This document shows positions 8,452-30,430 of a DNA stretch of 64,000 nt, piece by piece. The stretch is taken from assembly GCA_005791535.1 (NCBI GenBank), contig SXWH01000161.1, forward strand, positions 1 to 64,000, in the 5' to 3' direction. The position numbers and the translations under genes were made by a program. Each line of letters starts with the position of its first letter. The stretch's first letter is position 1. The notes under the pieces are model-generated. The model was not told the DNA's origin, searched no databases, and saw only the letters and a program-made list of their open reading frames with translations. The stretch is from Verrucomicrobiaceae bacterium. Its GTDB lineage: Bacteria > Verrucomicrobiota > Verrucomicrobiia > Chthoniobacterales > Chthoniobacteraceae.

Positions 8452-9498
8452 TTATTTCGCGGCTGGGCGCAGGTCCATCCGGCAGCCTTCATCGTGCGGC
8501 ACAGGCTTCCCCACCGCTTCGACGGGATGGGTAAAAAGATAGCGCCACACATTCTCGTGGAGGAATTTTCCGTCAGCCCCCTTCACCGCGGAACCACCGG
8601 GAGTCACGCTGCCGTGCGCACGCTTCGCGTCGTTCTTCACATCCGCGCTCGTCACAAGACGGCGTGTGTTTCCGAAGGGTGGCGCAGTCTTGTCCACGTC
8701 GGTGACAGGCCCGAATTCGCGCAATCCGAGCAACTCCCACGAGCGGCAATAGTGATCGCCGCTCCATCCGCCATCGAGCGTGTGGCTGAAACCGAAGTAG
8801 CGGTTCGCCGGCGTGGCGGACGGAAGGCCCTGCCAGGTCTCGTACTGGTCGCGCGGACCGCAGAACATCACGACACGATCGACACGCCGATGCTTTGCAA
8901 ATCGCGCCGCAGTCGTGGAGCCGTGCGACGCTCCGGAGAGAATCACTTTCTCCCAGCGGAGGTCCGATTTATCGGGCGTCAGGAAGCTATCCCACCGTCC
9001 CTGCGGATTCTCCTTCGCAAGCCATTTTACGAACTGCACCGACCGCTCGTGGATGCCGTCGGGTTTCGGAATGTTCACCACGTCGCTGAAATCCTCACCA
9101 GTCGCGGCTTCAAGGCGGATCTTGCCAAGGAACTTATCATCCGGCGGCGGCGGCTCCTTGCCGAAGCGACCAAACCAACCATTCGCGTAATGAACCCTGA
9201 TAGCGTGCAACCCGTAGCTGTTCACGCGCTCGAACAGCGCGGGATTGGGCCCCATGAGCCAGATGACGAGCCGATCCTGCGGCTTAACGCGCGTGTCCAC
9301 GGATGCGTGCTGCAGATCCTGCGGCTTGCCGTCCTTTTCAAAAACGAAGTCGATCTCCGGATGCGGCTTCGCACGAGGATCAATCGCGCTCGCGCGTGCA
9401 GTGAACTCATACCGCTTTGGCGCAGAATCGGTGAAAGACAACGGTGCGTCAGCCGCAAGTGATGCGACGGTAAACAGGAGTAGAGCACGGAGAATCAT
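8452..9498 (-). CDS. Secreted alpha/beta hydrolase, BPSS1187-like
   Basis: A 348-residue exported hydrolase with a signal peptide MILRALLLFTVASLAAD. The nucleophile elbow is ILSGASHGSTTAARF (GxSxG type), followed by RVVMFCGPRDQY and HTLDGGWSGDHYCRSW, which may hold the acid and His of the triad. It resembles the poorly characterised BPSS1187 family. It is the first gene of the sialic-acid-type operon, ending 4 bases before nanM. An esterase role, such as removing O-acetyl groups from sialic acids before uptake, is a reasonable guess from this position but is not shown by the sequence. No upstream gene is coupled to it, so the operon promoter should lie in 9499-9624. Confidence 0.7.
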   Translation of the reverse strand: MILRALLLFTVASLAADAPLSFTDSAPKRYEFTARASAIDPRAKPHPEIDFVFEKDGKPQDLQHASVDTRVKPQDRLVIWLMGPNPALFERVNSYGLHAIRVHYANGWFGRFGKEPPPPDDKFLGKIRLEAATGEDFSDVVNIPKPDGIHERSVQFVKWLAKENPQGRWDSFLTPDKSDLRWEKVILSGASHGSTTAARFAKHRRVDRVVMFCGPRDQYETWQGLPSATPANRYFGFSHTLDGGWSGDHYCRSWELLGLREFGPVTDVDKTAPPFGNTRRLVTSADVKNDAKRAHGSVTPGGSAVKGADGKFLHENVWRYLFTHPVEAVGKPVPHDEGCRMDLRPAAK

Positions 9499-9624
9499 GG
9501 AGCGATACTCCCGCGAATCCCGCCCGGCCTCAACTCCCAACTGGGCTTCTTTCGATGTTAACGGCTGCGCCTGCGCGCCGGACGAACCGCGGGACCAGAT
9601 TTATCCCGCACCACTCAGGGTTCG

Positions 9625-12600
9625 TCAGGGCTCGCGAATTGCACGGCGGATGATGAGATGCTCGCCTTCGATGATTATGTTGCCCGCCCCGTTGAACATT
9701 CCACCCCCGAGGCTCCTCTCGATCGGAGGCGAAGCGAAAGGCGACCTTGCGCCCGGCGTAAAAATGATCTCGCTCAGCGCTGCGACCGGAATCTCGAATT
9801 TGCCCGCCGATAGCGACTGGCAGACGACGCGTCCATTTTCGAAACGAAACGTCTCCGCGGTAATCGCTCCTTTTCCGGCAAGACGGAATCGCGCACCCGC
9901 TGCGGCCATCGCCGGCGTAGGAGCAAACTCAACCATCGTCGCACGCTTCGCGGGAATCTCCAACTCACCGACTTCGCATTCAACGAAAAGCGAATCCGCC
10001 GTCGCGCGCTTCAGAATGCCGCGGGTTTCGTCGCCGTTCACGAGCGCAACAGCGTCCAGCGGAACCTCAGACTCCGATGATTCCTCCGCAGACTCGGCCT
10101 TTCCGGCGGGCTGCTCTTGTGCGGGAGTGATCGGAACACCGAGGATGTTCACAGCCCGGCGTCCGTTGACCTCAACAACACGCGGAGGCGCGACGAGGGC
10201 TTGAAGACCAGGAATCGCAAGAGCTCGATTTTGATTCACTTTTGACTTTCCCGCCGCGGGCGGCAACGAGCCGCTCCATGGCGCCACCCAAAGATTCGAT
10301 ATCGTGGGGCTTGAACTCCCAGCCTGCGGAGCAATCGAGATACCACGCCCGGGCTTTGGACTGTCTCCTCCGCCCTTGCGATTGAGCTGCCCGACGAGCT
10401 TCCCATTCACGACCATGTAGAATCGCCCGGTGCTCCGTTCGCCGTAGAATGTGTAGCGCCGGGTGTTGCCCTCGTTGCTGATCGAATCGCCGAGTTCAAT
10501 TTGTTGCTGCTGATTCCCAATCGCACGGGCCGCGCGCGGGCTCATGTCGTAAAGATACGCGAAGCTGCCGGAAGCCTGCACCATGATCCCGGGCTTGTTG
10601 TCATCGAAGAAAAAGTGGGCAACGAACGACGTCTGCACGGCCGGCGAGACATCGAAACTGACTTCACACTTGTCGGGGAGGTTCTCGATGATCCGCCCGA
10701 CGTTCGGGCCGGACGAGGAACCGGAGCGCCCCGACTGCGCGAGCGTGAAAGCGCCGTCAAAGTGCTTCCACGGCCCCGGTGCTGCGCCCTTGTCCTTCAC
10801 GGCGCGATTGGCATTCCAGTAACCCGGTGCCACGGCACCTTCCATCCACACATCGCGCCCGCTCGCGCCATCCCACACAGGCGCTTCGCCGCTCGGACCG
10901 AGGTAGAGCGCGGCGAGGCCCTCGCGGGGGATCTCCATCCGGTCGGCAAGCGAGGTTTTTAAAACGAGCCGGTCATTTTCAAACGCGACGAGATTTCCCG
11001 TCAGCCAGTCGCCATTCCTCCAACGGATGGCGACATCACCGGACGGCGTTGGATTCGCATCCTTGCGCGGCGCTAGCTGAATTCCGGCGATCAACTTGCT
11101 TTCGAACTGCACTTCGCCGCCTTTAGCGGGTTTCCATTTCACGCCCTGATCGTTCGCTGCGGAAAGCAACGCCCCGCGGAACTGGTCGCCATTCTTGAAA
11201 ACCAAAGAGTCGGTAGCTGCGGCATTCTCCTGATCGATGACGCCCATCTTGTGCGGAAACTCGATCGCGTGAACCGCCGCAATCGGGAGCGCGATCTCGC
11301 CGGCGAACGGCGTGCGCACTTTCAGGACGCCATCTTTGAAACCGAGTGCTGTAATATCGAACTCCCCGCGCTGCGCCAGCCACACACGGGCAATCGATGC
11401 GGATTCCGACGGCGCAGGCTTTTTCCCGAATCGTAAAAACACGGGATCCTTCCGCGAGACTTCCGCGCCGCTGAACATCACGGTCTCCGCGGTGAGGCCT
11501 TCAAAAACGCCCGCTTTGCGAATCGTCGGTGTCGGCTTGATAATGTCCTTTCCGGCGTCATCCGGATCGCCGTCCGGAATGGCTTCTCCATCCCACGGTT
11601 GAACTTTTACACCGCTCAGCGTCCACGCCATATCCGAGCTCCAGTAGCTCGGCTGGAAAGTCAGTGAACTCACGCGAGCCGGCGTTTTTGGCACGCCGAT
11701 CTTCCATTCCGCCGCACGCACACCGTTGACGCGGACCTGAAGCGTTCCCTCCTTCGTATCGTAAAGAAGACGGTAGCGGGAAATCTTTTCGGCCTTTGCG
11801 TTGTCCTGCTCAAAGTTGACGGACTGATTTTTCATCGCATTGCCGTCGTATGAATTCATCGAAACAGAATTCCCCTGAAACCTAAGATACACGGAGCCGA
11901 CCGAGTAGCCGGTCGTCCTTCCCTCCGGCTGAATCCACAACGTGAGACCGCGGTTTTGATTGCCGCCATCGCCCGCCGTAAACTGGATGTCGATACGCTC
12001 TGAAAGCACATCGAACTTCCGGGTAATTGCACTCGACTGCTTCGCGATGAGCGAATCGTCCGAGCAACTCCATGCTCCGGCTATGGGAGTCTCCCAACCG
12101 GAGAGACCCGCCGGGCCGCGCGGGCCTTCATACGCATCCGGAGGAAGCGGATCGAATACCGCCCATTCGACGAATTTTTTCTCCACCTCGATCGAAGGTC
12201 CACCACCGAGCTCGACGGCGAACCGATCATTGGCAAATGCGTTGACCTTCCCGACGAGCCAGTCACCACCCGCAAGCTTGAGCGTGGCATTTGCTGCGAC
12301 GTCCTTGGCCGCCACACGCTTGCCGAGGGTCAAGCGGCGAACGTCGCCCGGCGAAAACACGAGAGGCAGATTTGCGTCCGCACGCTGCCAGACGAGTTCG
12401 CTTTTCCCCATCGACACGAGCGTGCCGTGAATCTGCGATCCATCGGTGAGTTCGAGCAACTGACTGCCGGCCGGCTCCGGTTCCGCAGCAGCGGGCTTCT
12501 TTGCGGGCCGCGCTGCATCGCCGATGCCGCCCAACTCGAAAAGACCGTCTCCGTCAAACTCGAGCACGTTGCCATCGATCTCAATTACGCCACCCTGAAC

Positions 12601-12696
12601 TTGAACATCGGCAGCCATCGCACCAAACGCAGCCACAACCAACCCGGCCGCGAACGCGCTGGTTTTCAAAATAGCGTGCAAACGCCGGACTCTCAT
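9625..12696 (-). CDS. Giant secreted repeat protein A (seven small beta-barrel repeats, two jelly-roll domains)
   Basis: A 1023-residue exported protein of unknown function. A signal peptide (residues 1-29, AFGAMAAD) is followed by an ordered pattern that I read directly from the sequence. Short repeats of about 45 residues have consensus (L)xLxNGDxxxGxLxxxxxxxLxxxxxxGxxxIPxxxVxxIxF at 79-124, 137-181, 404-481 (longer), 496-542, 554-599, 880-925 and 935-980. They are interrupted by two LamG/concanavalin-like regions at about 205-372 and 612-812, each ending in WxxPWxG or VQPWDG. The short repeats look like small SH3/Sm-like beta barrels. Its ATG overlaps the toroid-gene stop (ATGA 12693-12696). 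It shares the whole plan with protein B at 13715-16627, so the pair arose by duplication. Last gene of the operon. Confidence 0.8.
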   Translation of the reverse strand: MRVRRLHAILKTSAFAAGLVVAAFGAMAADVQVQGGVIEIDGNVLEFDGDGLFELGGIGDAARPAKKPAAAEPEPAGSQLLELTDGSQIHGTLVSMGKSELVWQRADANLPLVFSPGDVRRLTLGKRVAAKDVAANATLKLAGGDWLVGKVNAFANDRFAVELGGGPSIEVEKKFVEWAVFDPLPPDAYEGPRGPAGLSGWETPIAGAWSCSDDSLIAKQSSAITRKFDVLSERIDIQFTAGDGGNQNRGLTLWIQPEGRTTGYSVGSVYLRFQGNSVSMNSYDGNAMKNQSVNFEQDNAKAEKISRYRLLYDTKEGTLQVRVNGVRAAEWKIGVPKTPARVSSLTFQPSYWSSDMAWTLSGVKVQPWDGEAIPDGDPDDAGKDIIKPTPTIRKAGVFEGLTAETVMFSGAEVSRKDPVFLRFGKKPAPSESASIARVWLAQRGEFDITALGFKDGVLKVRTPFAGEIALPIAAVHAIEFPHKMGVIDQENAAATDSLVFKNGDQFRGALLSAANDQGVKWKPAKGGEVQFESKLIAGIQLAPRKDANPTPSGDVAIRWRNGDWLTGNLVAFENDRLVLKTSLADRMEIPREGLAALYLGPSGEAPVWDGASGRDVWMEGAVAPGYWNANRAVKDKGAAPGPWKHFDGAFTLAQSGRSGSSSGPNVGRIIENLPDKCEVSFDVSPAVQTSFVAHFFFDDNKPGIMVQASGSFAYLYDMSPRAARAIGNQQQQIELGDSISNEGNTRRYTFYGERSTGRFYMVVNGKLVGQLNRKGGGDSPKPGRGISIAPQAGSSSPTISNLWVAPWSGSLPPAAGKSKVNQNRALAIPGLQALVAPPRVVEVNGRRAVNILGVPITPAQEQPAGKAESAEESSESEVPLDAVALVNGDETRGILKRATADSLFVECEVGELEIPAKRATMVEFAPTPAMAAAGARFRLAGKGAITAETFRFENGRVVCQSLSAGKFEIPVAALSEIIFTPGARSPFASPPIERSLGGGMFNGAGNIIIEGEHLIIRRAIREP

Positions 12697-13718
12697 CGCT
12701 CGTAGATCGGGAGGTAACGGTAATTCAGCGCGATCGAGAGCAGGCCAAGTGCCGTGCACGTTCCGGGACCAAGACCAGCATCCCAACTTCCGTCCTCGTT
12801 CTGCGTTTCAGCGAGCCGCTTTACCTGCTTGTCGTTCCATTCCTGCCAGCCCTTGTAGTCACCTTGGAAAAAGGCCTGGGCTGCGTAGTACTCGAGGTAA
12901 AACGGATACCCGCCGCCCCCTCCGCCGCTCTCGTCGTCCGACTTCATTTTCTTGAGCGCTTTTGTAAACGTCGGGTTGTCCCGCTTTCTGGCATAGGCGA
13001 ATGCCGCCACGCCAATTGCAGTCGTCGAACCGCCGTGCGCACCCGAGCGCGGCATGTAGCCGATACTTCCGTCCGAAGGGCTCTGGCAGTCGGTGAAAAA
13101 TTTCAGCGCATCCTCGAAGTTCTTATCCGGCACTTTCAGCCCGGCATTTCGCGCGGCGATCATCGCCACGAAACACGCACCGCTCACCGTGGAATCCGCA
13201 TCGGACGCCTCGGGCGAATACCGCCATGCCTTGAAGCGGTTTTTATCCTGCGAGCTGATGATTAACTCCACCGCCTTTTTCAGCGCGGGACCGATCTTCT
13301 CGTCCTGAAAAGCCCCATATGCCTCCGCGAGGCCCAGTGTCGCGAACCCATGGTTGTACATGGAACTGCCGATGTATCCGTTCTCGCCCTGGTTCTTCAA
13401 AATGTAATCCACGCACTTGCGAATGGCCTTCGCATACGGGCCGTGGTTCGGGTCGTCGCCGTGGGACAGAAGCGCCATGAGCGCGAAACCGACAACTCCC
13501 GGCTCCGTACCGTACTGGCCTTGGAACGAGCCGTCGTCGTTCTGCGAGCGGACAAGATAGCGAAGTCCCTTCTCGTAAATCCGCTCGACCTCGGGCGACA
13601 CCTGCGTGCCGCGATAAACCTGAAAGTCCTTTGCCGACTCGGACGTATTATCCGGAGCGTTCTGCGCGGAAAGCGGAAGCACGGAGGCCAGAGCGATGGA
13701 CAAAATGCGCGTGTTCAT
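12693..13718 (-). CDS. Secreted alpha/alpha-toroid protein (prenyltransferase/squalene-oxidase repeats)
   Basis: A 341-residue exported protein with signal peptide MNTRILSIALASVLPLSAQ. The rest is a chain of paired helices with repeat cores typical of the terpene cyclase/prenyltransferase fold: RYLVRSQNDDGSFQGQYG, YILKNQGENGYIG, FFTDCQSPSDGSIGYM and RLAETQNEDGSWDAG, plus a Gly-rich insert GGGGGGYPFY. It lacks the catalytic DXDD or DCTAE Asp clusters of real cyclases. Binding or scaffolding is therefore more likely than terpene chemistry. Similar proteins are common in Planctomycetes and Verrucomicrobia. It is coupled at both ends by 4-bp ATGA overlaps, with giant paralogue B upstream and A downstream, which argues for one complex. 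Confidence 0.85.
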   Translation of the reverse strand: MNTRILSIALASVLPLSAQNAPDNTSESAKDFQVYRGTQVSPEVERIYEKGLRYLVRSQNDDGSFQGQYGTEPGVVGFALMALLSHGDDPNHGPYAKAIRKCVDYILKNQGENGYIGSSMYNHGFATLGLAEAYGAFQDEKIGPALKKAVELIISSQDKNRFKAWRYSPEASDADSTVSGACFVAMIAARNAGLKVPDKNFEDALKFFTDCQSPSDGSIGYMPRSGAHGGSTTAIGVAAFAYARKRDNPTFTKALKKMKSDDESGGGGGGYPFYLEYYAAQAFFQGDYKGWQEWNDKQVKRLAETQNEDGSWDAGLGPGTCTALGLLSIALNYRYLPIYER

Positions 13719-16627
13719 AAATTCGGGACGGCTTGAGCGGGTTCGAGCGGCACGGCAGGGGCGGCCGCCTCGGCGGGCTTGGGCTTTTCCTCGGCCTTTG
13801 GCGACGAAGGCGCAGTCGGGAAGCGAATCGGCTGAGGCGCGAGAATCAATTCGGACACGTCCGCCGCGGCAAACTTCAGATCGCCGAGCGCAGCACTCTT
13901 TGCGGTAAGCGCGCCAGCCTCCCACCTGAACTCATCCACGTGGAAAATGGAACCGTCTTTGAGCCGGATCCGACCGGCCGCTTTTGCTGGCGACGGCGCA
14001 CCGCCAAACTCCACGCCGGCGATGCGGTCCATCGGGAGTTCGAATTCGCCCACATCCGTCTCAACGGCCATTTTCCCATCGCGCAGACCGAGCACTTTGC
14101 CCGCGGCGACATCTCCGTTTGCGAGCGCAATTGCTCCGCCATCGGTCGCACCGGTTCCCGGCATTTCACCGTTCCACGGGCCAATCCAAAAGTTCGAAAG
14201 CTTTGTCGCGCTGTAACCCGAATAGGAGGAGAACGAGATCGTGTGACCGAGGTTCACGAAGGTATCCTCCTTGCGCGTGCCAAGTTTTTTCAACAGGACT
14301 CCATCCATCAGCACGGCGAGAGTTCCCTTTTCGCGATCGACAAGCAGCCGCACGCTGCGCTGGCTCGATTGCCCAAATTTTCCACGCAACGGAACCTCCG
14401 TGGAGAACGACCGCCCATTTCCGCGCTGCGAATAGCCGTGGATGTTCAGTTCACCATACGAGAAGGAAAGGTTAAGCTGATTGTTGCCGTTTTTGGAAGT
14501 GAGAGAAATCGTGAAGTACGGCTCCGAGTTGCCGAAGACACGGGCACTGCAGCGGATCTCGTATCTCTGCGGAAGAGGGAGTCCTGTCTGCGTCAGATAC
14601 GAGTTGTCATTGAAGGCGCTGCCACCTGCCGATGTGCGCGTAAAGAAGGCGCCATCCAGCGCGATCCAGCGATCCAGAGTACTCGTGCGGCGGCCACCGT
14701 AATCGGGATCATTCTGTCCCCAATCCGACGCGCCATCGATGACCGGGCTGGTATAATAACTCCACGCCTGCGCGCCGGCGATATCGCGCTCCCCGGCAAG
14801 CGCGTGTTTGAATTTGAGCGTGTCTTTTCCAATCGCGACGAGTTCCCCGGCGACCCGATCACCATTTCGAAGCTCGAGCGTGGAATGCTTTGGTTTCGCC
14901 GGCTCCTCCTCCTTTTCCTCATCTTTCTTCACCTCGCGCACCGCGACCCGCGCTCCGGGCGGTGCCGACGGTGGATGCGGCTTCACGCCGAATCGAACTC
15001 CGGCAACGCGGTCCGGCTGGATTTCCACATCGAATCCGGCGGGCGTCTTCCATTTCAGCACGCCGCCGTTTATCGTTTCGACAAGCTTTCCCGGAAGCTC
15101 GTCGGCGTTTTTGAAAACCAGAACGTCCGACACGGCGGCTTCGCTGCTTTTCGACGGAAAGGCTATCGTCTGGAGCGAAGTCGTCTCCAATTCCAGCGAC
15201 GGCGAAAAGCTCGTGCGAAACTTCGCGCGGCCTTCGCGTATCTCGAGTCCACCGGCGGACAGTTCGCCATTCTGGCCAAAAACAAGTAACGCATCCGCAT
15301 CCGCCATGCCCTTTCCTGTGTCGGAAAACCGGAGCATCGTCCCGCTCATCAGATCCTTTTCCACTCCGCCAAAGGTAATCTTCTTTTCGGAAATCGCGGT
15401 GGTGCGCCCGGTCTCTGTCGGCGTGCTCGGCAGCGAAAGCCGGTCGGTGTCGGCAGGTTGCTCGGTCTCTGCGAGATTGCCGTCCCACGGTAACAGTCGG
15501 AAGTTCCCGACCACCACATCGCCCATGTTTTCGCGGTTAAAGCAGAGCCCTCGCAGAGTTTCGCGACCGTTCACCTTATCGTCCGCGAGCGCCCACTCCG
15601 CGGCTTTTGCGCCATTGCGCATCACGGTGAGTTTTCGATCCACGCCATCGTAAAAAACACGGACGCGATGCCATCCATCCTTCGCAGCCGGCGCATCCGC
15701 AGGCAGCTTCACTTTGTCGCGCTTGAATCCGTTTTCGTAAATGCAGCGCTCCATTTCGCTCTCGCCGATGCTCAGCTGCACAGTGCCCGTGCTGTAGGAA
15801 TTGGGCCGAGGCGAAAACGGCTGCAGCCAGAGCTGAAACGCGGCTTCCTCCGCCTTGGCGACGGGAATCTCAAAGGCGACCTCGAAGCGCTTCGGCGGCT
15901 TCATCGATTTCGCCACAAACGCATTCTTTGGAAACTTGATCCGTCCGTCCTTCAAATCCTCCGCTGGAGAGCCCGAAATAGTCCACGCCTCCACATTGGC
16001 GAAATCGAGTCCAAAGCCAGCCACCGCTTCCTTCCCGAAAAACATCCAGCCAATCTGCTCACGGGTCACGGTGAACGATGTGGAGCCGGGAAGCTTTACC
16101 GAATAGGTCTGCCCGTCGGCGCTGGAGACCTCGCCGTGCATCCAGTCCGTCCCGCCCAGCTTCACGGTCGCCATGGAGGTCGGCTCGGATTTCTTCGAAG
16201 TGCCCGCCTGCTGCATGACGAAATCATTGTCCGAGGAGGAAACCGGCCCGCGAAGCGAAACGCGGCGGATGTCCTTCCGCCCGAAACGAAGCGGCTGATT
16301 CACATCGATACGGCTCCATACGACTTCGTTCGCTGTGAGTTCCACCATCCGCCCACGCATCTGCCGGCCATCAGTGAACAGAAGCGTATGCTCCATTCCC
16401 TCCACCTTCGGGGTCTTCGGCGTGGACGATGAGGAGGAAATCCGTTTTGCACCGAAAATGTTCAGCAGCAAATTCGCCGCCGGTTTGACGACATCCGGCG
16501 CCCGCTTTTCCTCAACCGGGTCCGCTCCAAAAATTTCGACATCGGCACCGAGCGGAGTTTGCCCGCGCGCGACCGCCAAGGCCGCGAGGACCAACGGCGC
16601 GATCCACGATGAACGGAAACGCGTCAC
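13715..16627 (-). CDS. Giant secreted repeat protein B (same architecture as A)
   Basis: A 970-residue exported protein with a GTG start at 16627 and a GAGGAG ribosome-binding site inside the end of the preceding gene. After a signal peptide (about 22 residues) it repeats the plan of protein A in the same order. Short barrel-like repeats are at 79-126, 152-197, 428-490, 500-547, 582-625, 831-875 and 885-930, with jelly-roll-like regions at about 211-383 and 653-821; the latter ends IGPWNGEM. A charged Lys/Glu linker is at 566-580, and a Pro/Ala tail (932-970) has no counterpart in A. Function is unknown. Adhesion or a surface-layer/outer-membrane scaffold would fit the domains. Coupled to the toroid gene by ATGA (13715-13718). 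Confidence 0.8.
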   Translation of the reverse strand: MTRFRSSWIAPLVLAALAVARGQTPLGADVEIFGADPVEEKRAPDVVKPAANLLLNIFGAKRISSSSSTPKTPKVEGMEHTLLFTDGRQMRGRMVELTANEVVWSRIDVNQPLRFGRKDIRRVSLRGPVSSSDNDFVMQQAGTSKKSEPTSMATVKLGGTDWMHGEVSSADGQTYSVKLPGSTSFTVTREQIGWMFFGKEAVAGFGLDFANVEAWTISGSPAEDLKDGRIKFPKNAFVAKSMKPPKRFEVAFEIPVAKAEEAAFQLWLQPFSPRPNSYSTGTVQLSIGESEMERCIYENGFKRDKVKLPADAPAAKDGWHRVRVFYDGVDRKLTVMRNGAKAAEWALADDKVNGRETLRGLCFNRENMGDVVVGNFRLLPWDGNLAETEQPADTDRLSLPSTPTETGRTTAISEKKITFGGVEKDLMSGTMLRFSDTGKGMADADALLVFGQNGELSAGGLEIREGRAKFRTSFSPSLELETTSLQTIAFPSKSSEAAVSDVLVFKNADELPGKLVETINGGVLKWKTPAGFDVEIQPDRVAGVRFGVKPHPPSAPPGARVAVREVKKDEEKEEEPAKPKHSTLELRNGDRVAGELVAIGKDTLKFKHALAGERDIAGAQAWSYYTSPVIDGASDWGQNDPDYGGRRTSTLDRWIALDGAFFTRTSAGGSAFNDNSYLTQTGLPLPQRYEIRCSARVFGNSEPYFTISLTSKNGNNQLNLSFSYGELNIHGYSQRGNGRSFSTEVPLRGKFGQSSQRSVRLLVDREKGTLAVLMDGVLLKKLGTRKEDTFVNLGHTISFSSYSGYSATKLSNFWIGPWNGEMPGTGATDGGAIALANGDVAAGKVLGLRDGKMAVETDVGEFELPMDRIAGVEFGGAPSPAKAAGRIRLKDGSIFHVDEFRWEAGALTAKSAALGDLKFAAADVSELILAPQPIRFPTAPSSPKAEEKPKPAEAAAPAVPLEPAQAVPNL

Positions 16628-16630
16628 AGG

Positions 16631-19600
16631 TTAGTTCTTCTCCTCGATCGACTGGATGTAACTCTGCAACGCATCGCGGAACTCCTCGGGCCACTCGCCC
16701 GCACTTGAAGATCCACCGCTCTTGTCGACGACTCGGGAGTTCGATTTGTTGCGGCCTGCGGCACCATCCGCCGGCGTACCGGCAAGCGCGCTCGGGTTCG
16801 ACGACGCGTTGCGCCCCGGCTTTTTGCCTTTCGCCATCTGCTGCATCATCTTCTGCATCTGCGACTGGCTCTGGCTTCCACCCTTCTTATCCGGCGGAAC
16901 GAGAATCTCGATAATCGTGCCGTGAAGCTGGACCACTTCATCGCCCGTGCGGGGCGCCTTGAGTTCACCCGCTGATTCCCGCATCAACTCGTCCACCTTC
17001 TCGAGCGTGGGGCCGAACTTATCCATGAACTTTGCGAACTTCGGATCTTCGGTGAGTTTTTTGACGCTGCCCGCGAGACCGCTCTGTATCGCGCTGACCT
17101 TTACCGCCTCGGCAGCGTAGTTGTCTGCTGCCTTGGCTTTCTCAAGCTCCGTCGTCTGGTCGCGAATCGTGTCCTGCGCCACGGCCGCACGGACCATCGA
17201 AATCATCAACTCCATCAAATCGGGGTCCTGCTCGCCTTCCCCACCGTTCTTGCAGTTGCATTCACTCTGGATTGCTTCGGCCCATTTGTTGAGTTGATCG
17301 CCCCACTGCTTGGCGCGGCCCACACTCTTCAGTCCGAGGTTCGCGCGGACAAACCCGGCAAGTTCGCCGAGTTCGGAAACCACCTTGGTCTCCTCCATCT
17401 CCTTCACCACCAACTCGTATTTCTCGTTCGGAATGCGGCGCAAAAAGGCGGTCATGTCATTCTGGATGCCGCTCACGTCCTTCACGGCGCCGTCCTGATT
17501 TCCCGCCACACCGTCGAACTCCTTTTTGTGATCATCGGCGATTTCATCCGGCTTCAATCCCACCGTCGCCTTTGCGAGCTTCTTCAACCCGTCTGAGATC
17601 TTGAATTCCTGCGAAGCTGCGTGGCGGAGCCGGTTGTAGAAGTTCCGCGCAAACAGATTCTCGTTTGTCGTCTGCATCTTGCCCGCAGCCTCGCGCATCG
17701 CGTCGAGCGCTTTCTGCTGCTGATTCTGCGCCTGCTTCATCTCGCCCTGACGCTGCTCCTTCGACGACTGTCCGGCCTTCGCGAGCGAATCCGACGCCTT
17801 GTTCTGTGCCTGATTCGCGTCTTCATCGAGCTTCTTCGCGATCTCGCTGTACTCCTTGATCGTGTCGCTCTGGATGTCCTTGTTCCGGAGCGCGTCCTTC
17901 ATGATGTCCTGCATCTGGGCGACGAGCTTCTTCAACTCCTCGGAATTCTGCTTCTCCCCGGCTTCGGCGCGCTTGATGTCCTCGCCAGCCTTCTCCGAGT
18001 CGATGTCCTTCCGATCCGCAATTTCCTTCGATTCTTCAAGCTGCCGCTCCTCATCGCGAATGCGCTCATCGAGCTGTTTCAGGACGTTATCCATCCTCTC
18101 GCGAATGCGCTCCGCGTGCTTCTCCGGGCTCAACACGAAGATTGTGTATTTCCAAGACTGCACAGGTTTCCGGCCCGGGAAATAATCGAGCGCGTTTGCC
18201 GTGAGTTCGATAACCGAATCCGCAGGGACTCCCCAATCGGCAGGCGCCCACCGGACCGGACGAACCATCTCCTTCATCGTCTGAGCACCGGCAACGCGCG
18301 GCGTTTCGGGCTTCGGCTTCTCTGCAGTCGCGGCATCTTTCTTCGCGGTCGCCTCCTTTTTCCAATCCGCATAAAGTGACTCAAACGGGCTCTTCGCTGC
18401 CTCCTTCTTTCCCTTTTCCTCTTCCTTCTTCTGACCGGCCTGACGCATCTCCCAAGAAAGCCACGTTTCCTTCAGCCCGAAGTCATCGCTCGCAGCGAGC
18501 GTGAACTGCACGGACTCGTGTGGAAGAATCGCGAGTTCCGTCTCCATGTTCTGCACCTCAATGCGGGGCTCGGCGTCTTTTGCGGTCCCAACGCGCAACC
18601 CGTAGGCCTGAACCGGAGCCAGACCGTGAACATCCGCCCAGTTGAAACGGACCTCGCTCCCTAGATCCGCGAGGGCGATGGATGGCGTCTTGAACGAGTT
18701 CTGCTCGGCAGCCGCAGGCCATGTGAAATCCACTCCCGCCACTTCTCCGCGGCCGACTCCGCGCGCGATGGTTCCCTCAAACGAAACCTTGCTTCCCTCG
18801 AGAAACTCGCCCGCGCTTCCGTGCAGTTTCACGGCCTGTTCCGGATAACCGAGATATGCGGGCATCGTCACGCGCGCGGACAGCTCCTTGAGTTCCGGAC
18901 GGTGGAGCGGATGAACTGCGATCTCTTTCAAATAATCTCCAAACCGCAGCGCGATGACTCCGTCCTTCGTCTGGCCGGGAAACTGGAACAATGCGCGATT
19001 GTCCGAAACATCCGCAGTCAATTTCTCCTGCTCGCCAATCCGGGCAGTCGCGCTTCCCGGCTTCCACTGCGCATCGGCGCGGAGCCCGACTGCGAGTTCG
19101 AACTTTTCGCCATGCGCGACATAAAGCTCGGCAGGCAGTTGCTCTACAGTCGTGAACGTGAACCGCTCGATCTCGGCCCACGGCATCGCCCAGCGCTTGG
19201 CGGCATTGGTCGCGGCTTTCGGCGCGAGCAGGAATGGCGCTGCCGCGAGCGCGGCAACAACCGTCGCGGCGAACGCCCAACGCTTCGCAGGACGCGTCGG
19301 CACCGCCTCTTCGAAATTGCAGCGCCCGGACTCCTCGGCGACCTGCCGGACAGCCGCACGGAGCAACGCCGGCGAGATGTTCGCGGGCAGATCCTTCGAC
19401 TCCGTCAATTCGATCACGCCCTGCAGACGATCGCCGAGGCCTCGAAAGTGACCTTGCAAGAGCTTTGCGAGCTGCGCAGGGCCACGCCGCGTCCACAGCC
19501 AGTAACGCGCCCAGCTTTGCGCAAACATCGCAGCGAGAATCGCACCCGTCGCCGTCAGCACGATGCGCGCTGCAATCGGCGTATTCACAAATCGATCCGC

Positions 19601-19738
19601 CACAAAGAGAAGCACGTAAGTGATCAGCAAACCCGCAAGGCCACCGGTCACGGCGGCGATGGTTTCCATTCGCTTCAACCGCTGTTCGTAAGAGCGAAGT
19701 TGCGCGACGAGTGAGTCAGGGAGCGTGGCCGAATTCAT
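16631..19738 (-). CDS. Membrane-anchored coiled-coil protein, DUF4175-like
   Basis: A 1035-residue protein, first gene of the four-gene operon. Two membrane helices lie near residues 27-47 and 57-75 and a third near 152-172 (FAATVVAALAAAPFLLAP). Next comes a large extracytoplasmic Ig/beta-rich region, then a long highly charged helical region rich in Glu, Lys and Gln (for example RMDNVLKQLDERIRDEERQL), and a low-complexity C-terminus with Gln/Ser/Met and Gly/Ser runs. The layout matches the DUF4175 type of membrane protein often found near MoxR/BatA-like genes in this phylum, but no MoxR is present here. It ends 3 bases before the giant paralogue B. It probably anchors or organises the exported proteins encoded downstream. 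No catalytic motif seen. Confidence 0.75.
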   Translation of the reverse strand: MNSATLPDSLVAQLRSYEQRLKRMETIAAVTGGLAGLLITYVLLFVADRFVNTPIAARIVLTATGAILAAMFAQSWARYWLWTRRGPAQLAKLLQGHFRGLGDRLQGVIELTESKDLPANISPALLRAAVRQVAEESGRCNFEEAVPTRPAKRWAFAATVVAALAAAPFLLAPKAATNAAKRWAMPWAEIERFTFTTVEQLPAELYVAHGEKFELAVGLRADAQWKPGSATARIGEQEKLTADVSDNRALFQFPGQTKDGVIALRFGDYLKEIAVHPLHRPELKELSARVTMPAYLGYPEQAVKLHGSAGEFLEGSKVSFEGTIARGVGRGEVAGVDFTWPAAAEQNSFKTPSIALADLGSEVRFNWADVHGLAPVQAYGLRVGTAKDAEPRIEVQNMETELAILPHESVQFTLAASDDFGLKETWLSWEMRQAGQKKEEEKGKKEAAKSPFESLYADWKKEATAKKDAATAEKPKPETPRVAGAQTMKEMVRPVRWAPADWGVPADSVIELTANALDYFPGRKPVQSWKYTIFVLSPEKHAERIRERMDNVLKQLDERIRDEERQLEESKEIADRKDIDSEKAGEDIKRAEAGEKQNSEELKKLVAQMQDIMKDALRNKDIQSDTIKEYSEIAKKLDEDANQAQNKASDSLAKAGQSSKEQRQGEMKQAQNQQQKALDAMREAAGKMQTTNENLFARNFYNRLRHAASQEFKISDGLKKLAKATVGLKPDEIADDHKKEFDGVAGNQDGAVKDVSGIQNDMTAFLRRIPNEKYELVVKEMEETKVVSELGELAGFVRANLGLKSVGRAKQWGDQLNKWAEAIQSECNCKNGGEGEQDPDLMELMISMVRAAVAQDTIRDQTTELEKAKAADNYAAEAVKVSAIQSGLAGSVKKLTEDPKFAKFMDKFGPTLEKVDELMRESAGELKAPRTGDEVVQLHGTIIEILVPPDKKGGSQSQSQMQKMMQQMAKGKKPGRNASSNPSALAGTPADGAAGRNKSNSRVVDKSGGSSSAGEWPEEFRDALQSYIQSIEEKN

Positions 19739-23933: not shown

Positions 23934-26534
23934 TTACTTGCCAAAGCCCGTCAGCGCCGGGAGCGGCGGCGGCGGGAGATCAGGCATCGGGAGAGCCTCC
24001 ACCTTCTCTTCGACTTCGTCTTCCGAAGTGACGAGGTCACCGGCCGGATTAACGAGTTTCGCAGTTACGAAGATGATGAGGTTCCGCTTGATGTGTTGGT
24101 CAACCTTGGAGCGGAACAAACGTCCGACCACCGGCACGTCACCGAGAATCGGGGTCTTGTCCTCGACGCTTTGAACGTCTTCGCGGACGAGACCGCCAAG
24201 CACCACGGTTGCACCATCAAACACGGTAACATTGGTCGTCACCTTGCGGGTCGCAAAAATGGGCTGGTTGATCACGTTCGGCGTGATGACGTTCACGACC
24301 TGCTGGCCGAGCGCGTTCGTCGAAGTGCTTTGAATCGGGCTGCCGTAGTTGATGAAGCCTTCAAACTCCACAACCTGCGGCGCAAGATTCATGTCAATCG
24401 AGTAGCCATCCGGTCCGATCTGCGGTTCGACCTGCAACGTGACACCGGTGTTCTTGATTTCGAATGCCGTCGGCGTGGTGGGCGTGACCGGGAATGATCC
24501 GCTTCCGCCGCCACCAAGGAGACCTGCGAGACCGCCGCCTCCGTTGTTGCCGGTGTTGCCGAAGGTCTGCGGAATCTGCGGCTGCTCGAACTCCGTCGGA
24601 TACCGGAATTCACGGATGATTTCGATGACCGCCTGCTGGCCGGGCTTCGTCGTAACGCGCGGGGCCGAAAGAAGGTCCACGCCCTTCTTCTGGTCCAGTC
24701 CGCGCATCACAAGCTGGAACTGTGGATCAGTCCGGGCACCAACGAGTGAGAAGATGCCGGGCGCGATTGCCGAGCTTCCTGCGCCACCGAAGAGCAGCGC
24801 GTCGATTGCGTTGGCGCTGATGGCGAGCGATCCGCTGCGGTTTCCACCCGTGATCGGATTCTGGCCGATCGGGCTTCCGCCTTGGAGGAATACGAAATCC
24901 GCAGGATTGGTCTGCGGCAGCGTGCCGCGGGTTCCACCCGAGGTAAAGAGGCTGTTCGTCGAGATTCCAGGAACGTTCGATTGGCCGAGCAGCCAGTCGA
25001 AGCTCAGTTCCTTCAGGTTGTTCTGCGTGATTTCAACAAACTTCGCCTGAATTTCCACCTGCGTCACGCCGGTGCTGCTTTCGAGCGACTCGACTATCTT
25101 TTCGATGAGGTCGAGGTTCTCCGAGGTGTTCTTCACCGTGAGCGTGCTTGTCGATTTCGAGTAAATTGCAATCGAGCCCGCCGGGAATTGAACACCCGCT
25201 GCGATGAGCGTATCCTTCGCCGTCATGGCAGCGCCAAGCGGAGCAACCCCACCGGCTGCAGGATCGGGCGTCACTGCATTTAGACCGCCACCGCCACCGC
25301 CGCCGGGAATGCGCGCGAGGAAGTCCGGGCGCACTTTCCACTCCTTGGTGAACATTTCCGATGTGTCCGTATTGATCGGCACAACCGATACCGCGAATGG
25401 TTCAACCTTGAATTTCAAGCTCGCCAGCGTGGTGATATACTTGAGCGCCTCAACGAGCGGAACATTGTTGAGCGTGAGAGTGATTTTCGTATCCGCTCCA
25501 CCGCTTGCAACCGGAGCCGCAGGCGCTTCAGGAGCCGCAGGAACGGGGTCGAGGCCGGGGATGCCGCCGCCAGCAGGAGCCGCAGGCACCGGAGCCGGAG
25601 CCGAGATTCCACTTTGGTCGAGCTTGAGAACGATATTTACGCCCTCTTTCGCCTCGTCGAGTTCCTTGCTCTTCTTGCCGAGATATTCGATCGCTTCGCG
25701 TACCGTCGAATCACGGAAGTCAATCTTCGGAATGATGATCGAATTGAGCTTCTTGGTAATGTTGACGGTGTTCGGAGCATTGCTCTTGCTCTTCTCCGAA
25801 ATCTCCACAGTGCGCTTGTCGAAGCGGCGGTAAGGACGCTGCCACTCCTTCGTGACTTCCCACATGGCTTGGGCACGGGCGCTGTCGTACGCAACTTCCG
25901 CGAAGTCGCTCTTTTCATTCGCAATCGAAGCGCGCCGCATTTCCGCAGCCTTGTTGTATTTGTCCTTGTTCAGGACGCGCTGGGCGGCGATGTCCGCCAA
26001 ATCATAGCGACCGAGATCCTGATATTGCTGCGAATCGAGATGATCCTGCTTCACTTCCTCAAGTTTGGCGCGGAACTGAGGCGTCATCTTCTTGTTGAAA
26101 ATATCCGGAGCCTCGATGTTCGCGAGCAGGCGGTGCACCGGACGTGAATCCGGATTATGGCGAAGTACTTCCTTCAGTGCTTCTACCGCGCTGACATAAT
26201 AACCTTCGGTGATGCGCTGTTCTGCGAGGCGAAGACCGGCTTCCGTGAAACCGCCGACGGCTGTGCTGCGGGCCGACTGGGTGGCCGGGGCGTTGGCGAT
26301 GGCTTCGCATGCATTCTTGTAATGGGCAAATGCCGCTTCGTAATCCTTCGAGCGAAGGGCCGCGCGTCCTTTTTCGGTTTCCTGGCGGCCCTGAACTTCG
26401 CGCTGCATGCGGCGCTGGAGTTCACGCTCAGCGGTAGCTTCGGTACCTTGCGCATAGATCGCAACGGGTTGGACGATGGCGAAAGTCGCTACGAGGAGCG
26501 ACGCGATTGGTGTGGAGAGAGGGGGTCGTTTCAT
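23934..26534 (-). CDS. Type II/IV secretin (PilQ/GspD family; Amuc_1098-like)
   Basis: An 866-residue outer-membrane secretin, the gated pore of a type IV pilus or type II secretion-like machine. It has a signal peptide (1-29), then a TPR-like helical region (about 40-200), a small alpha/beta N-domain (FRDSTVREAIEYLGKKSKEL) with a second one after an Ala/Pro linker, and the C-terminal secretin domain. That domain holds VEIQAKFVEITQNN, LLSAPRVTTKPGQQAVIEI, a Gly-rich gate insert (GNTGNNGGGGLAGLLGGGGS), VFDGATVVLGGLVRE and the typical end DVPVVGRLFRSK...NLIIFVTAKLV. The TPR-bearing N-terminus and gene order match Akkermansia Amuc_1098. No pilotin gene is seen. It lies 60 bases after the Amuc_1099-like gene and just before coaE. 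Confidence 0.93.
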   Translation of the reverse strand: MKRPPLSTPIASLLVATFAIVQPVAIYAQGTEATAERELQRRMQREVQGRQETEKGRAALRSKDYEAAFAHYKNACEAIANAPATQSARSTAVGGFTEAGLRLAEQRITEGYYVSAVEALKEVLRHNPDSRPVHRLLANIEAPDIFNKKMTPQFRAKLEEVKQDHLDSQQYQDLGRYDLADIAAQRVLNKDKYNKAAEMRRASIANEKSDFAEVAYDSARAQAMWEVTKEWQRPYRRFDKRTVEISEKSKSNAPNTVNITKKLNSIIIPKIDFRDSTVREAIEYLGKKSKELDEAKEGVNIVLKLDQSGISAPAPVPAAPAGGGIPGLDPVPAAPEAPAAPVASGGADTKITLTLNNVPLVEALKYITTLASLKFKVEPFAVSVVPINTDTSEMFTKEWKVRPDFLARIPGGGGGGGLNAVTPDPAAGGVAPLGAAMTAKDTLIAAGVQFPAGSIAIYSKSTSTLTVKNTSENLDLIEKIVESLESSTGVTQVEIQAKFVEITQNNLKELSFDWLLGQSNVPGISTNSLFTSGGTRGTLPQTNPADFVFLQGGSPIGQNPITGGNRSGSLAISANAIDALLFGGAGSSAIAPGIFSLVGARTDPQFQLVMRGLDQKKGVDLLSAPRVTTKPGQQAVIEIIREFRYPTEFEQPQIPQTFGNTGNNGGGGLAGLLGGGGSGSFPVTPTTPTAFEIKNTGVTLQVEPQIGPDGYSIDMNLAPQVVEFEGFINYGSPIQSTSTNALGQQVVNVITPNVINQPIFATRKVTTNVTVFDGATVVLGGLVREDVQSVEDKTPILGDVPVVGRLFRSKVDQHIKRNLIIFVTAKLVNPAGDLVTSEDEVEEKVEALPMPDLPPPPLPALTGFGK

Positions 26535-26594
26535 AGGCGTAGTGTGTTTGGTTTGGTAAAGGTTAAGTGTGAGATTCGCGATTGGTTTGCCCGG

Positions 26595-27629
26595 CTATTT
26601 TCCGGCTGCCACTGGAGGAGTGGCCGGCGGATTTTCAGTCAGAACAAATGTTTTCTTTTCGCCAGACGGCAGGAGCACGTCCACTTCCTTGTCGCGAATT
26701 TCGATGACCTTGTAGGTCTTGTCGCGTTCAGGGTCCAGCGTAAACGTTTCGTCTTTCTTTTTGGCAAAGTCCCTCGTCGGCTCGGCTCCGGGAGCAACCC
26801 AGCGATACGAAAATTGCGCAAACGATTCCGGTGAGTTCCCCGGGACGTCTTTGACCAACGCGAGCTTCGCACCGGTCCGGACGTTCACCATGTTTGCGAC
26901 GGATTCGTCTTTGTCGGCGGTTTCCTTGTATTCGAAAGATTCGAATTTCCACTCCGTGTTCGGCACGGTCTGTCCGGGCTCAACAAACACTGTTTTCCCT
27001 CCGCGATCGATTGGATTGATCTGGATCGAACTGCACTTCTTCGCCTTCGTATCGTAATCGTAGGATCGGAGCAAAAGACGGAATGGGACCTTGTGAACCC
27101 TCACGAGATACAGCCGGGTGTGATAGGGTGGATGCGATTCAGCCTTGGTCGGGTCGGTTGCATCCGATTCCTCTACTGGCGCAACCGCTGTGAGCACTCC
27201 GTCATTGCCCGCATACTCCCAAACGAGATCAAATCCGTCCTTGTCAATGTCGTCGGTCAAAATGGTTGGGCTAGTAATATCAATGCCCCATTCGATAATC
27301 GGTCCATTTGGAACAGGAGGATGGAGAGGAGGTCCGTCTTTTCCAGGCTTAATTAACCGGCCATCCTTCACTAGATACTTCTCGGATACGAACGGACTCG
27401 CGGCTTTGGGTGTCCATGCCGCCGGCTTCTCAAGAGCCGCCATTCGATCGGCGACAGCCTGCAAGTCGGTCGGAGGGATTTTTCCGTCTTCACTTGGATT
27501 CACGTAGGCACCTTGGAAAGGCTCCTTGAAACTGTTCGCGTTTGAGTAAAGCACAAACGCGACGCCGAACATTACCAATGCGGCAACAATCAGCGACAAC
27601 TGTGCGGGATTCTTTTTGATCCAGTTCAT
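26595..27629 (-). CDS. Single-pass periplasmic protein of the secretin cluster (Amuc_1099-like)
   Basis: A 344-residue protein with one N-terminal membrane helix (about 9-28, LSLIVAALVMFGVAFVLYS) and a large periplasmic part without recognised enzyme motifs. Two segments near the C-terminus (NMVNVRTGAKLALVKDVPG and DKTYKVIEIRDKEVDVLLPS) look like small beta domains, as in inner-membrane pilus or secretion platform partners (PilP/GspC-like). By position it corresponds to Akkermansia Amuc_1099, between the Amuc_1100-like gene (3 bases upstream) and the secretin. A linker between the inner-membrane platform and the secretin is the likely role, inferred from topology and order only. Confidence 0.75.
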   Translation of the reverse strand: MNWIKKNPAQLSLIVAALVMFGVAFVLYSNANSFKEPFQGAYVNPSEDGKIPPTDLQAVADRMAALEKPAAWTPKAASPFVSEKYLVKDGRLIKPGKDGPPLHPPVPNGPIIEWGIDITSPTILTDDIDKDGFDLVWEYAGNDGVLTAVAPVEESDATDPTKAESHPPYHTRLYLVRVHKVPFRLLLRSYDYDTKAKKCSSIQINPIDRGGKTVFVEPGQTVPNTEWKFESFEYKETADKDESVANMVNVRTGAKLALVKDVPGNSPESFAQFSYRWVAPGAEPTRDFAKKKDETFTLDPERDKTYKVIEIRDKEVDVLLPSGEKKTFVLTENPPATPPVAAGK

Positions 27630-27632
27630 GTG

Positions 27633-28703
27633 TTACTTGGAGGCTTTTGCTTTTGTGTCGGCAGCGACCTTCACGTCAGCGAAGTCCACCATCTCCAATT
27701 CCAGTTCAACCTCAAGCTTCTCCTCTCCTACAATCCAGTTAATTTTGCCGGAGCCTCCAGCCGCAGGCGTTGGAGCGGCCGGTGCAGGCGCCGCACCTTC
27801 AGCTGGAGTGGCAGGCGTCGCAGGCGCAGCGGCCGGATCGGCCGGAGCAGCAGCGGGGTCGGCGGGCGGCGGGGCCACAGCGAGGCCGGGTGCTTCCTTG
27901 ATGGGACCATCAAGCTTTTCGTTCCGGACCACCACACGGCGAGGAATGATGAACGGCTGCTTGGCCTGAGAGATGTTGTTGAGAATCTTCATGAACGAAG
28001 ACTGATGGGCCTGAAACTTCACCTCGAATTTATGCGTCGTCACGAGCTTCGGGCCATCCTCGCCTTTGTTTTTTCCTCCGCTGGCCGGCTTTTTTTCGTC
28101 CCTTTTTTTCTCAGCCGCTTTTTCGCCGGCTTCCACTGGAAGCTTTGAGCGTTTGACCTCGTGCAGTTGGGTCACGCCGTTGTCGAGCAGTTGCTGCACG
28201 ACAAACTCAATAACCTTCAGCTCGCGCGCCAATTCGGATGATGCCTCGTCCTGCGGAAGCTTGTCGAGATAGTCGAAGCCGAGATTGAACGTCGCATCGG
28301 CCACCACCGCGGCGGCGTCATCCTTCTTCTGCCCGGGAAGGAGCATCTTTTTCGTCAGAGACTCGCCTTTGATGCGATCAATGGTCTGCTTGAGGCGATC
28401 CTGAAAGACATTCGGACGAACATCCTCAGCCGGGAACTCGGTCGCCACCAACTGCTGGTGAAGCTTTGAAATCTCGCCATCCACTTTCGCCAGTTCGGCC
28501 TTGTAGGCGGCGACGTTTTTGTCGTTCGGGAACGGCTTTCCGCCTTGAAGCGCCTGCAACTCGGAGAGCTTGCTCTCAAAATCGCTCTTCTTCTTCTCGT
28601 ATTCCCCTTTGGCACCGACAAGCAGAAACCCGACGGCTCCGGCGAGGACTACGGTGACGCCGCCGAAAATGGCGGTAAACTTGTTTTGCTGGAACCAACT
28701 CAT
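27633..28703 (-). CDS. Amuc_1100-like pilus-associated protein (PilO-like)
   Basis: A 356-residue protein. A short cytoplasmic start MSWFQQNKFTAIFGG leads into one membrane helix (about 10-30), then a coiled coil (GEYEKKKSDFESKLSELQAL and on to about 70), then a domain with KVIEFVVQQLLDNGVTQLHE and KFQAHQSSFMKILNNISQ, which has the look of a PilO ferredoxin-like fold. An Ala/Pro linker (about 290-330) and a final beta segment follow. The same order of parts is found in Akkermansia muciniphila Amuc_1100, the pilus-associated protein known for TLR2-mediated host effects. Coupled to the PilM-PilN gene by ATGA (28700-28703). If correct, this shows the Amuc_1100 family outside Akkermansia. Function in the bacterium is presumably assembly of the inner-membrane platform. 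Confidence 0.8.
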   Translation of the reverse strand: MSWFQQNKFTAIFGGVTVVLAGAVGFLLVGAKGEYEKKKSDFESKLSELQALQGGKPFPNDKNVAAYKAELAKVDGEISKLHQQLVATEFPAEDVRPNVFQDRLKQTIDRIKGESLTKKMLLPGQKKDDAAAVVADATFNLGFDYLDKLPQDEASSELARELKVIEFVVQQLLDNGVTQLHEVKRSKLPVEAGEKAAEKKRDEKKPASGGKNKGEDGPKLVTTHKFEVKFQAHQSSFMKILNNISQAKQPFIIPRRVVVRNEKLDGPIKEAPGLAVAPPPADPAAAPADPAAAPATPATPAEGAAPAPAAPTPAAGGSGKINWIVGEEKLEVELELEMVDFADVKVAADTKAKASK

Positions 28704-30430
28704 TTGAGCGAAATAGGTTTCTTGAGTGTGAGCGGGAACGAGAACTTGTCCGCCCACAACGTGTTGTTCATCGACGGGCGGCTGAGCTTCTCGCTGTCCT
28801 TCGGAGGCTCGACATATGGCGAAGCCTCAAGGTTTTTGATGAAATCATCGAACACCTCGCTCTTGCGCGGGTTTTCGAGCACGAGTCCATTGATTGTCAT
28901 TGTGATGACAGGACCGGCATCCGCCTCGGCTTTCGCCTTGCCACCACCGGGCTTCTTCGGTGGTTCAACCGGCTTCGCCTTTTCAACCTCTGCCGCAGTC
29001 GGCGGGATGAATTCCGTGATCCAGATATATTCGGCGGGGAGGCGGCTCGAGATATCGTCGATAACGCGAACCCAGTATTCACGGTCCGAAACAGCATCCA
29101 GAAGCGGCGCCGATTCCTTGACGCGGTCTTCAATCGCAGCGCGTGCGGTTTTGATAGGGCCGGCTTTTGAACTGAGCGCGCCGACCTTTGCCTCCACTTT
29201 GGCGAGTTCGTCGGCCGTGATGGTCGCCGCCTTGCTGTAGTAAGCGTAGAGGCCGCCGAGGGCCGCAAGCACACAGACACCAGTGGCCACAATGAATGGC
29301 TTCTGAGCAGCACGCGCTTCCGCAGCGGTGACGCTCTGCGGGCGCAGGCTCAATTCCAGCGGGCAGCTATTCGAGCTGCGCAGCGCAAGACCGACCAGTT
29401 CGCCGATCGAGTGCGCTTTGCGGCCGATTTCCTCCACGTCGAGATTTCCGGACACGGAAACATTGCGGAGCGGATTGAAGAAATCCACATCCATACCCGC
29501 GAACTTCTCCTGGAAGAATTCGCGCATATAAGGGAAGGAAGCCGTGCCGCCCGCGAGCAACACACGGACCGGCTGTGCGCCGCCATGTTCGCTGCGATAG
29601 AAAGTAATACTGCGCGCAATTTCCTGATGCAGACGCGTCATTTGATTGCGGATAATCTTCGACATCCGCGCGAGGTCGGCATTGTCCGGTTCGGCATAGC
29701 CGCCGCCGAGCGAGACGAACCCCTCCTGCACTTTCATGCGATCCGCGTCGCTGAAATCGAGGCTCAAATCCTTGGCAATCGCCGTGGTGATGCTGCTGCC
29801 ACCAATGTTCAGGCGGCGCGGGAAAATCTTGCCGGGCTCAACGAAAATGAGATTCGTCGTGCGCGATCCAATGTCCACGATAAGCGAGCATCCATCGGCA
29901 TCGGCATAATTGTAACGGAACGCATTATACAGTGCGAGCGGTCCGATTTCGATCACACCGGCGCGAACGCCCGCGCTCTCAACAGCGTCATTGATCTCGT
30001 CAAGCAGGTCGCTCTTGATCGCGCCGAGAATAACTTCCACGGAGCCATCAGATCCATCGTCGAGCAACTGCCAGTCCCACACGACCTGATTGATCGGATA
30101 CGGAACATTCTGCGCGGCTTCGAAACCGACGATCTGCTCCACCTGCGCCTGATCGCCCACGCTGGGAAGCGTGACCGGGCGGATGAAGACCACATTTGAA
30201 GCGATCGCGTAATTAACCTTCGCGCCCTTGAGCCCGAAGTTCGCGGCGAGCGACTGGATTTCGAGCTTCGACTGCGCGATGCGCGTCGCATCGACCGCCG
30301 GGTCGCCCAGAATCTCGCCCTGTTCGAAGCGGGAGAGCACCAGCCCTCCGGAAGCGTTGGTCTGAAACTCGGCCAGACTAACCGTCTGGGTTCCAAGATT
30401 CAGCGCGTAAATACGATTTGGTGCAGCCAT
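28700..30430 (-). CDS. PilM-PilN fusion protein (Amuc_1101-like)
   Basis: A 576-residue protein that joins two components normally made separately. Residues 1-360 are an actin-like PilM ATPase: the N-terminal RIYALNLGTQTVSLAEF phosphate loop, IVDIGSRTTNLIF near 184-196, and LLAGGTASFPYM near 291-302. A membrane helix lies at 378-398 (KPFIVATGVCVLAALGGLYA), followed by a coiled coil (408-450) and a PilN-like periplasmic domain (451-576) with YWVRVIDDISSRLPAEYIWI and ITMTINGLVLENP. PilM normally binds the cytoplasmic tail of PilN, so the fusion keeps the pair in a fixed 1:1 ratio. Its start is 24 bases after the Ig-like gene and its stop overlaps the PilO-like start. Confidence 0.88.
   Translation of the reverse strand: MAAPNRIYALNLGTQTVSLAEFQTNASGGLVLSRFEQGEILGDPAVDATRIAQSKLEIQSLAANFGLKGAKVNYAIASNVVFIRPVTLPSVGDQAQVEQIVGFEAAQNVPYPINQVVWDWQLLDDGSDGSVEVILGAIKSDLLDEINDAVESAGVRAGVIEIGPLALYNAFRYNYADADGCSLIVDIGSRTTNLIFVEPGKIFPRRLNIGGSSITTAIAKDLSLDFSDADRMKVQEGFVSLGGGYAEPDNADLARMSKIIRNQMTRLHQEIARSITFYRSEHGGAQPVRVLLAGGTASFPYMREFFQEKFAGMDVDFFNPLRNVSVSGNLDVEEIGRKAHSIGELVGLALRSSNSCPLELSLRPQSVTAAEARAAQKPFIVATGVCVLAALGGLYAYYSKAATITADELAKVEAKVGALSSKAGPIKTARAAIEDRVKESAPLLDAVSDREYWVRVIDDISSRLPAEYIWITEFIPPTAAEVEKAKPVEPPKKPGGGKAKAEADAGPVITMTINGLVLENPRKSEVFDDFIKNLEASPYVEPPKDSEKLSRPSMNNTLWADKFSFPLTLKKPISLK

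Follow-up and report, generated by a model that had tools for sequence, protein, structure and literature searches.

Four genes lie head to tail on the minus strand of the 64,000-nucleotide stretch of Verrucomicrobiaceae DNA analysed here (hereafter the window). Based on the sequence and its open reading frames, the order in the direction of transcription is M, B, T and A:

19738-16631, minus strand: M, a membrane protein of 1035 aa
16627-13715, minus strand: B, 970 aa, with a GTG start, 3 bases after M
13718-12693, minus strand: T, an alpha/alpha-toroid protein of 341 aa
12696-9625, minus strand: A, 1023 aa
13715-13718, minus strand: ATGA overlap of the B stop and the T start
12693-12696, minus strand: ATGA overlap of the T stop and the A start

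The gene order, the 3-base gap and both overlaps had been claimed in a first-pass annotation of this DNA and are all present in the sequence. That annotation also called A and B giant proteins, a label to be toned down given their real size of about 1000 aa. The long reading frames did not arise by chance, since homologues across the phylum preserve both frame and order. A scan for promoters and terminators gave no excess over shuffled sequences. Upstream of M, the window carries an endonuclease/exonuclease/phosphatase-family gene, an RNase D-like gene and a rho-like gene, and a BPSS1187-family protein is encoded directly downstream of A (8452-9540, minus strand; NCBIfam, E 1e-75). Elsewhere in the window, a secretin with TPR and a PilM-like gene (23934-30430, minus strand) probably belong to a gene set for type IV pili or type II secretion, and a hybrid two-component protein of 1193 aa (33464-37045, minus strand) combines Reg_prop propeller, Y_Y_Y, histidine kinase and receiver domains.

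Neither A nor B has a Pfam match. The two proteins are paralogous, as had been proposed, with E values of 1e-41 to 1e-45 and 28-29% identity over ca. 490-750 aa. Each consists of exactly two end-to-end fused copies of a unit of ca. 480 aa, here called U, which comprises two SH3-like barrels, a lectin-fold jelly-roll and two further barrels. When a profile was made from relatives with a single unit, it found two matches in A and two in B, each spanning almost an entire unit. The AlphaFold2 model of A (mean pLDDT 74, pTM 0.74) places the units as follows:

11260..12462, minus strand: first U unit of A, residues 79-479, with barrels at 79-123 and 137-181, a jelly-roll at ca. 189-367, and barrels at 384-422 and 436-479
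9763..11211, minus strand: second U unit of A, residues 496-978, with barrels at 496-540 and 555-599, a jelly-roll at ca. 606-806, and barrels at 881-923 and 935-978

The plan first assigned to both proteins was two barrels, a jelly-roll, three barrels, a jelly-roll and two barrels. The shared layout, the ends and the two jelly-rolls stand, while the model of A contains eight small barrels arranged as 2, jelly-roll, 4, jelly-roll, 2. There are four barrels in the middle and not three because A and B each comprise two whole U units in tandem. The small barrels and jelly-rolls expected for A are supported by the model and by fold comparison. The modelled first jelly-roll adopts a ConA-like lectin/glucanase fold (Z 13-15.5 against ConA-like lectins and GH16 enzymes, rmsd ca. 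3 A over ca. 170 residues), a predicted lectin fold which is common and indicates no ligand. Apparent kinship of A with botulinum binding domains, neurexin and laminin was rejected, as TM-scores were below 0.35 and rmsd values above 19 A; these matches reflect the common ConA-like jelly-roll. A sequence search of the U profile against solved structures found no relative. Consistent with small barrels, some U proteins weakly match Hfq/LSM. B matches the small SH3/Sm-like barrel repeat families LB_137 and LIC_13076 (NCBIfam) weakly, with E values of 0.0013 and 0.005, scores that lie far under the curated cut-offs and concern the barrel region. A U protein at another locus (L109, 12265-13806) carries a C-terminal LysM motif, a peptidoglycan-binding element, and one genome (G159, locus L202) encodes a U protein of 937 aa.

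In a tree of individual units, the N-terminal halves of A and B cluster together (22 rows), as do the C-terminal halves, the latter with two single units (24 rows). Pairwise scores agree: the two N-terminal halves match at E 8e-40 and the two C-terminal halves at E 7e-26, with weaker matches between N- and C-terminal halves. This separate grouping argues for one fusion before the duplication into A and B. Most likely, U genes were originally tandem single genes, of which two fused once in a Chthoniobacteraceae-like lineage, followed by duplication of the fused gene. The duplicated architecture noted at the outset is therefore real, and is now explained by two tandem genes having fused and the product having then been duplicated. 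B is a lineage-specific paralogue of A; an A-type gene was found in 9/9 relatives within the genus, and close B orthologues (59%) are present in G290 and G295. The fused gene of locus L120 falls elsewhere in the unit tree and looks like a separate fusion.

T matches the squalene-hopene cyclase/prenyltransferase toroid models of Pfam, and its profile matches solved squalene-hopene cyclases. By sequence, T shares the fold of these alpha-alpha toroids and differs from the cyclases in having about half their length, an export-like N-terminal segment and no DxDD motif. Many residues are invariant across the T family, and most relatives end in P[IV]YER. A likewise has an export-like segment at its N-terminus, and a hydrophobic N-terminus is found in 72/80 T and 116/137 U family proteins. 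These features bear on a possible carbohydrate-processing set, in which the jelly-rolls would be GH16- or DUF1080-like enzymes and T a terpene or hopanoid cyclase or lyase. The likeness of the jelly-roll to GH16 enzymes as well as lectins, the sequence similarity of T to squalene-hopene cyclase and its many invariant residues would all suit such a set. However, a simple pattern for the GH16-type catalytic motif found no instance in A or B, and 45 U proteins gave no GH16, LamG or DUF1080 match at E 0.1. Further, DxDD, the catalytic motif in class II cyclases, occurs in only 1 of 124 T proteins, and there within an over-long reading frame, while 122 of the 124 carry D-[AG]-D-[ST]-T in its place. 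Without DxDD, T probably does not act as a class II terpene cyclase, and we regard carbohydrate processing as an improbable account of the operon.

M has three predicted transmembrane segments (residues 27-45, 55-73 and 154-172), followed in the prediction by three Ig/Fn3-like domains at ca. 200-535 and a long helical coiled-coil tail at ca. 538-970. Loop charges suggest that the N-terminus lies inside and that the large part of the protein is periplasmic. The description of M as DUF4175-like holds remotely: 5 of 35 relatives match DUF4175 (PF13779; best E 1.8e-4), while M itself has no Pfam match. Like DUF4175 membrane proteins, M has N-terminal transmembrane segments and a large C-terminal part; unlike them, it escapes the model, and better DUF4175 matches lie at other loci of the same genome, on contigs C118 and C65. 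Matches of M to solved folds are weak. Foldseek matches include complement C3 and alpha-2-macroglobulin, and a paralogous toroid on contig C240 of the window's genome weakly matches the TED model (E 8e-5), which raises the idea of a split macroglobulin-like trap with the Ig-like array of M as macroglobulin domains and T as the toroid (TED) domain. Against this, the thioester motif CxEQ is found in 0/124 T proteins, making a thioester trap unlikely for T, the Z values of ca. 7.5-10 for M are in the range usual for Ig arrays, and the long coiled coil of M is unlike macroglobulins. We rejected the complement and macroglobulin matches as generic Ig arrays and hold such a trap to be very improbable.

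A profile of T retrieved 324 related stretches in named genomes, of which the best 80, picked by T similarity alone, were taken as loci. Nearly all of these 80 are labelled Verrucomicrobiota, Lentisphaerae or Kiritimatiellae. The operon is also present at locus L078, from the cultured relative Chthoniobacter flavus Ellin428. A protein-only scan of genome contigs with B gave no match. The conserved gene order sought in relatives is there: of these 80 loci, 67/78 have M directly upstream of T, and 73/77 have a U gene directly downstream. Two U genes follow T in 40 of these loci, one in 25 and three in 9, and M and T overlap by ATGA (gap of -4) in 28. Many loci further carry genes for vWA, BatA, DUF58 and MoxR ATPase proteins upstream of M, where Pfam identifies MoxR-type AAA_3, DUF58 and BatA. 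BatA, vWA and M together stand upstream of T in 22/48 of the best 80 loci with enough sequence, and one operon often holds all the genes in the order MoxR-DUF58-BatA-vWA-M-T-U(-U-U). Loci L193-L197 come from genus g9 of family f8, with genomes of 2.7-3.2 Mb. In 4/5 of them, M occupies two reading frames (of which L196 shows one), and T, U and U come next; the L193 locus has two methylmalonyl-CoA mutase genes next to it.

The M-T-U module can come apart, since M lies on another contig than T and A in G289 and G296. Scattering of the large genes away from the membrane and toroid genes had been named as evidence against a common complex. To that extent it occurs, as do solitary extra copies of U, yet T is present in 12/12 further U-bearing genomes examined.

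Co-inheritance was scored in 155 genomes of the phylum, all at least 90% complete except the window's own. M was found in 25/155 genomes. All 25 also have T, which gave one additional weak match (G098), and the vWA/GATase-like protein occurs in exactly the 25 with M. M and T lie on one contig within ca. 2.5 kb in 25/25 genomes. The vWA gene is linked to M-T in 12 of the 25 and lies on another contig or far off in the other 13, including the window's genome. In six genomes, M-T and vWA share one long contig at a distance of at least 0.4 Mb, even measured round a circle, and both are retained; here, the split does not result from assembly breaks. Three genomes of genus g9, the genus of these six unlinked cases, are without M, T and vWA (G005, G051 and G069). 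As the 25 positive genomes fall in 12 of 86 genera and counts were not corrected for kinship, the co-occurrences are not independent events. M-T-U is thus co-inherited with the ATPase cluster, as scored by its vWA protein.

In the window's own genome, MoxR, DUF58, BatA and vWA genes are located on contig C53, apart from M-B-T-A. MoxR is cut at the contig edge, and other genes follow DUF58, BatA and vWA there. The DUF58 and vWA proteins of C53 are 72% and 68% identical to operon-linked copies of G306. Two more M-like DUF4175 proteins are encoded on C118 and C65 (L065, 7494-9302; L152, 8875-11958), with a DUF58 gene ca. 1.7 kb away in one case and a MoxR gene ca. 3.4 kb away in the other, which suggests several MoxR-type systems in this genome. 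Further DUF58-BatA(-vWA) clusters on C110, C183 and C289 (L188, L192 and L189) have no M, T or U nearby.

These data bear on the original reading, in which M, T, A and B alone would form a co-assembled complex, extracellular or at the cell surface, independent of any MoxR cluster. Tight coupling in the window, the lectin-fold and SH3-like domains of A and B, and the location of the MoxR cluster elsewhere in the window's genome fit such a complex. It is weakened by co-occurrence, as exactly the M-bearing genomes carry the MoxR cluster's vWA protein, which is kept even where unlinked and often lies within the same operon; we consider a self-contained complex unlikely. The broader proposal of an envelope-located, functionally coupled set fares better, being in agreement with strong synteny and co-occurrence, the three predicted transmembrane segments of M and the export-like N-termini of most T and U proteins. 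The first-pass annotation could not match the genes to a named system; they can now be recognised as the distal portion of a MoxR-DUF58-BatA-vWA cluster.

We therefore favor, as reasonably probable, the reading that M-B-T-A supplies the membrane and exported components of a MoxR/Bat-type ATPase system restricted to part of Verrucomicrobiota. Its linkage to the MoxR-Bat cluster is well supported. A point against the MoxR/Bat reading is that BatA-vWA stand upstream in only about half of the loci that are long enough. The Bat (Bacteroides aerotolerance) operon and the Rhizobium RL3499-RL3502 MoxR operon have in common a clustered MoxR AAA+ ATPase, DUF58 and BatA/vWA membrane proteins. The system described here adds M, the toroid T and U, which in the window stand apart from the ATPase genes. 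To our knowledge, M, T and U proteins are part of no described Bat operon. A literature search, with most subscription papers outside its reach, returned no paper joining a Verrucomicrobia MoxR operon to a squalene-cyclase-like gene. New here is the pairing of a MoxR/Bat system with a toroid that is exported and proteins in which lectin/barrel units are fused.

In such a system, the cytosolic MoxR ATPase and DUF58 would act on membrane-anchored BatA, vWA and M, and together these proteins could drive or gate how envelope material is folded, assembled or positioned. Outside the inner membrane, the exported proteins, T and the U family with its lectin-fold and SH3-barrel domains, may bind peptidoglycan, glycan or a client protein. 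From the folds, the export signals, the one LysM-bearing U protein and the phenotype of the Rhizobium MoxR operon, we infer a possible role in envelope maintenance with glycan or peptidoglycan binding. RL3499 of Rhizobium, a MoxR protein of the MRP subfamily, plays an important part in membrane integrity and cell morphology (PMC3893208, PMC5700661). The analogy does not fix the function, because bat deletion in Leptospira biflexa resulted in no growth, shape or oxidative-stress phenotype (PMC3557215). Taken further, and put forward tentatively, the genes might encode a previously undescribed membrane-spanning, ATP-driven envelope machine in which a MoxR/BatA/vWA engine works via the coiled-coil protein M on the toroid and the lectin/SH3-barrel proteins that are exported. 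Such a machine would be inherited or lost as a whole across Verrucomicrobiota, even where its genes sit at separate places on the chromosome.

That tandem U genes have fused hints at two different U units acting side by side. MoxR/Bat operons are widespread, and their targets and function are unsettled. By naming the exported partners T and U and the membrane partner M through linkage and co-inheritance, the analysis provides concrete proteins for the study of MoxR/Bat systems.
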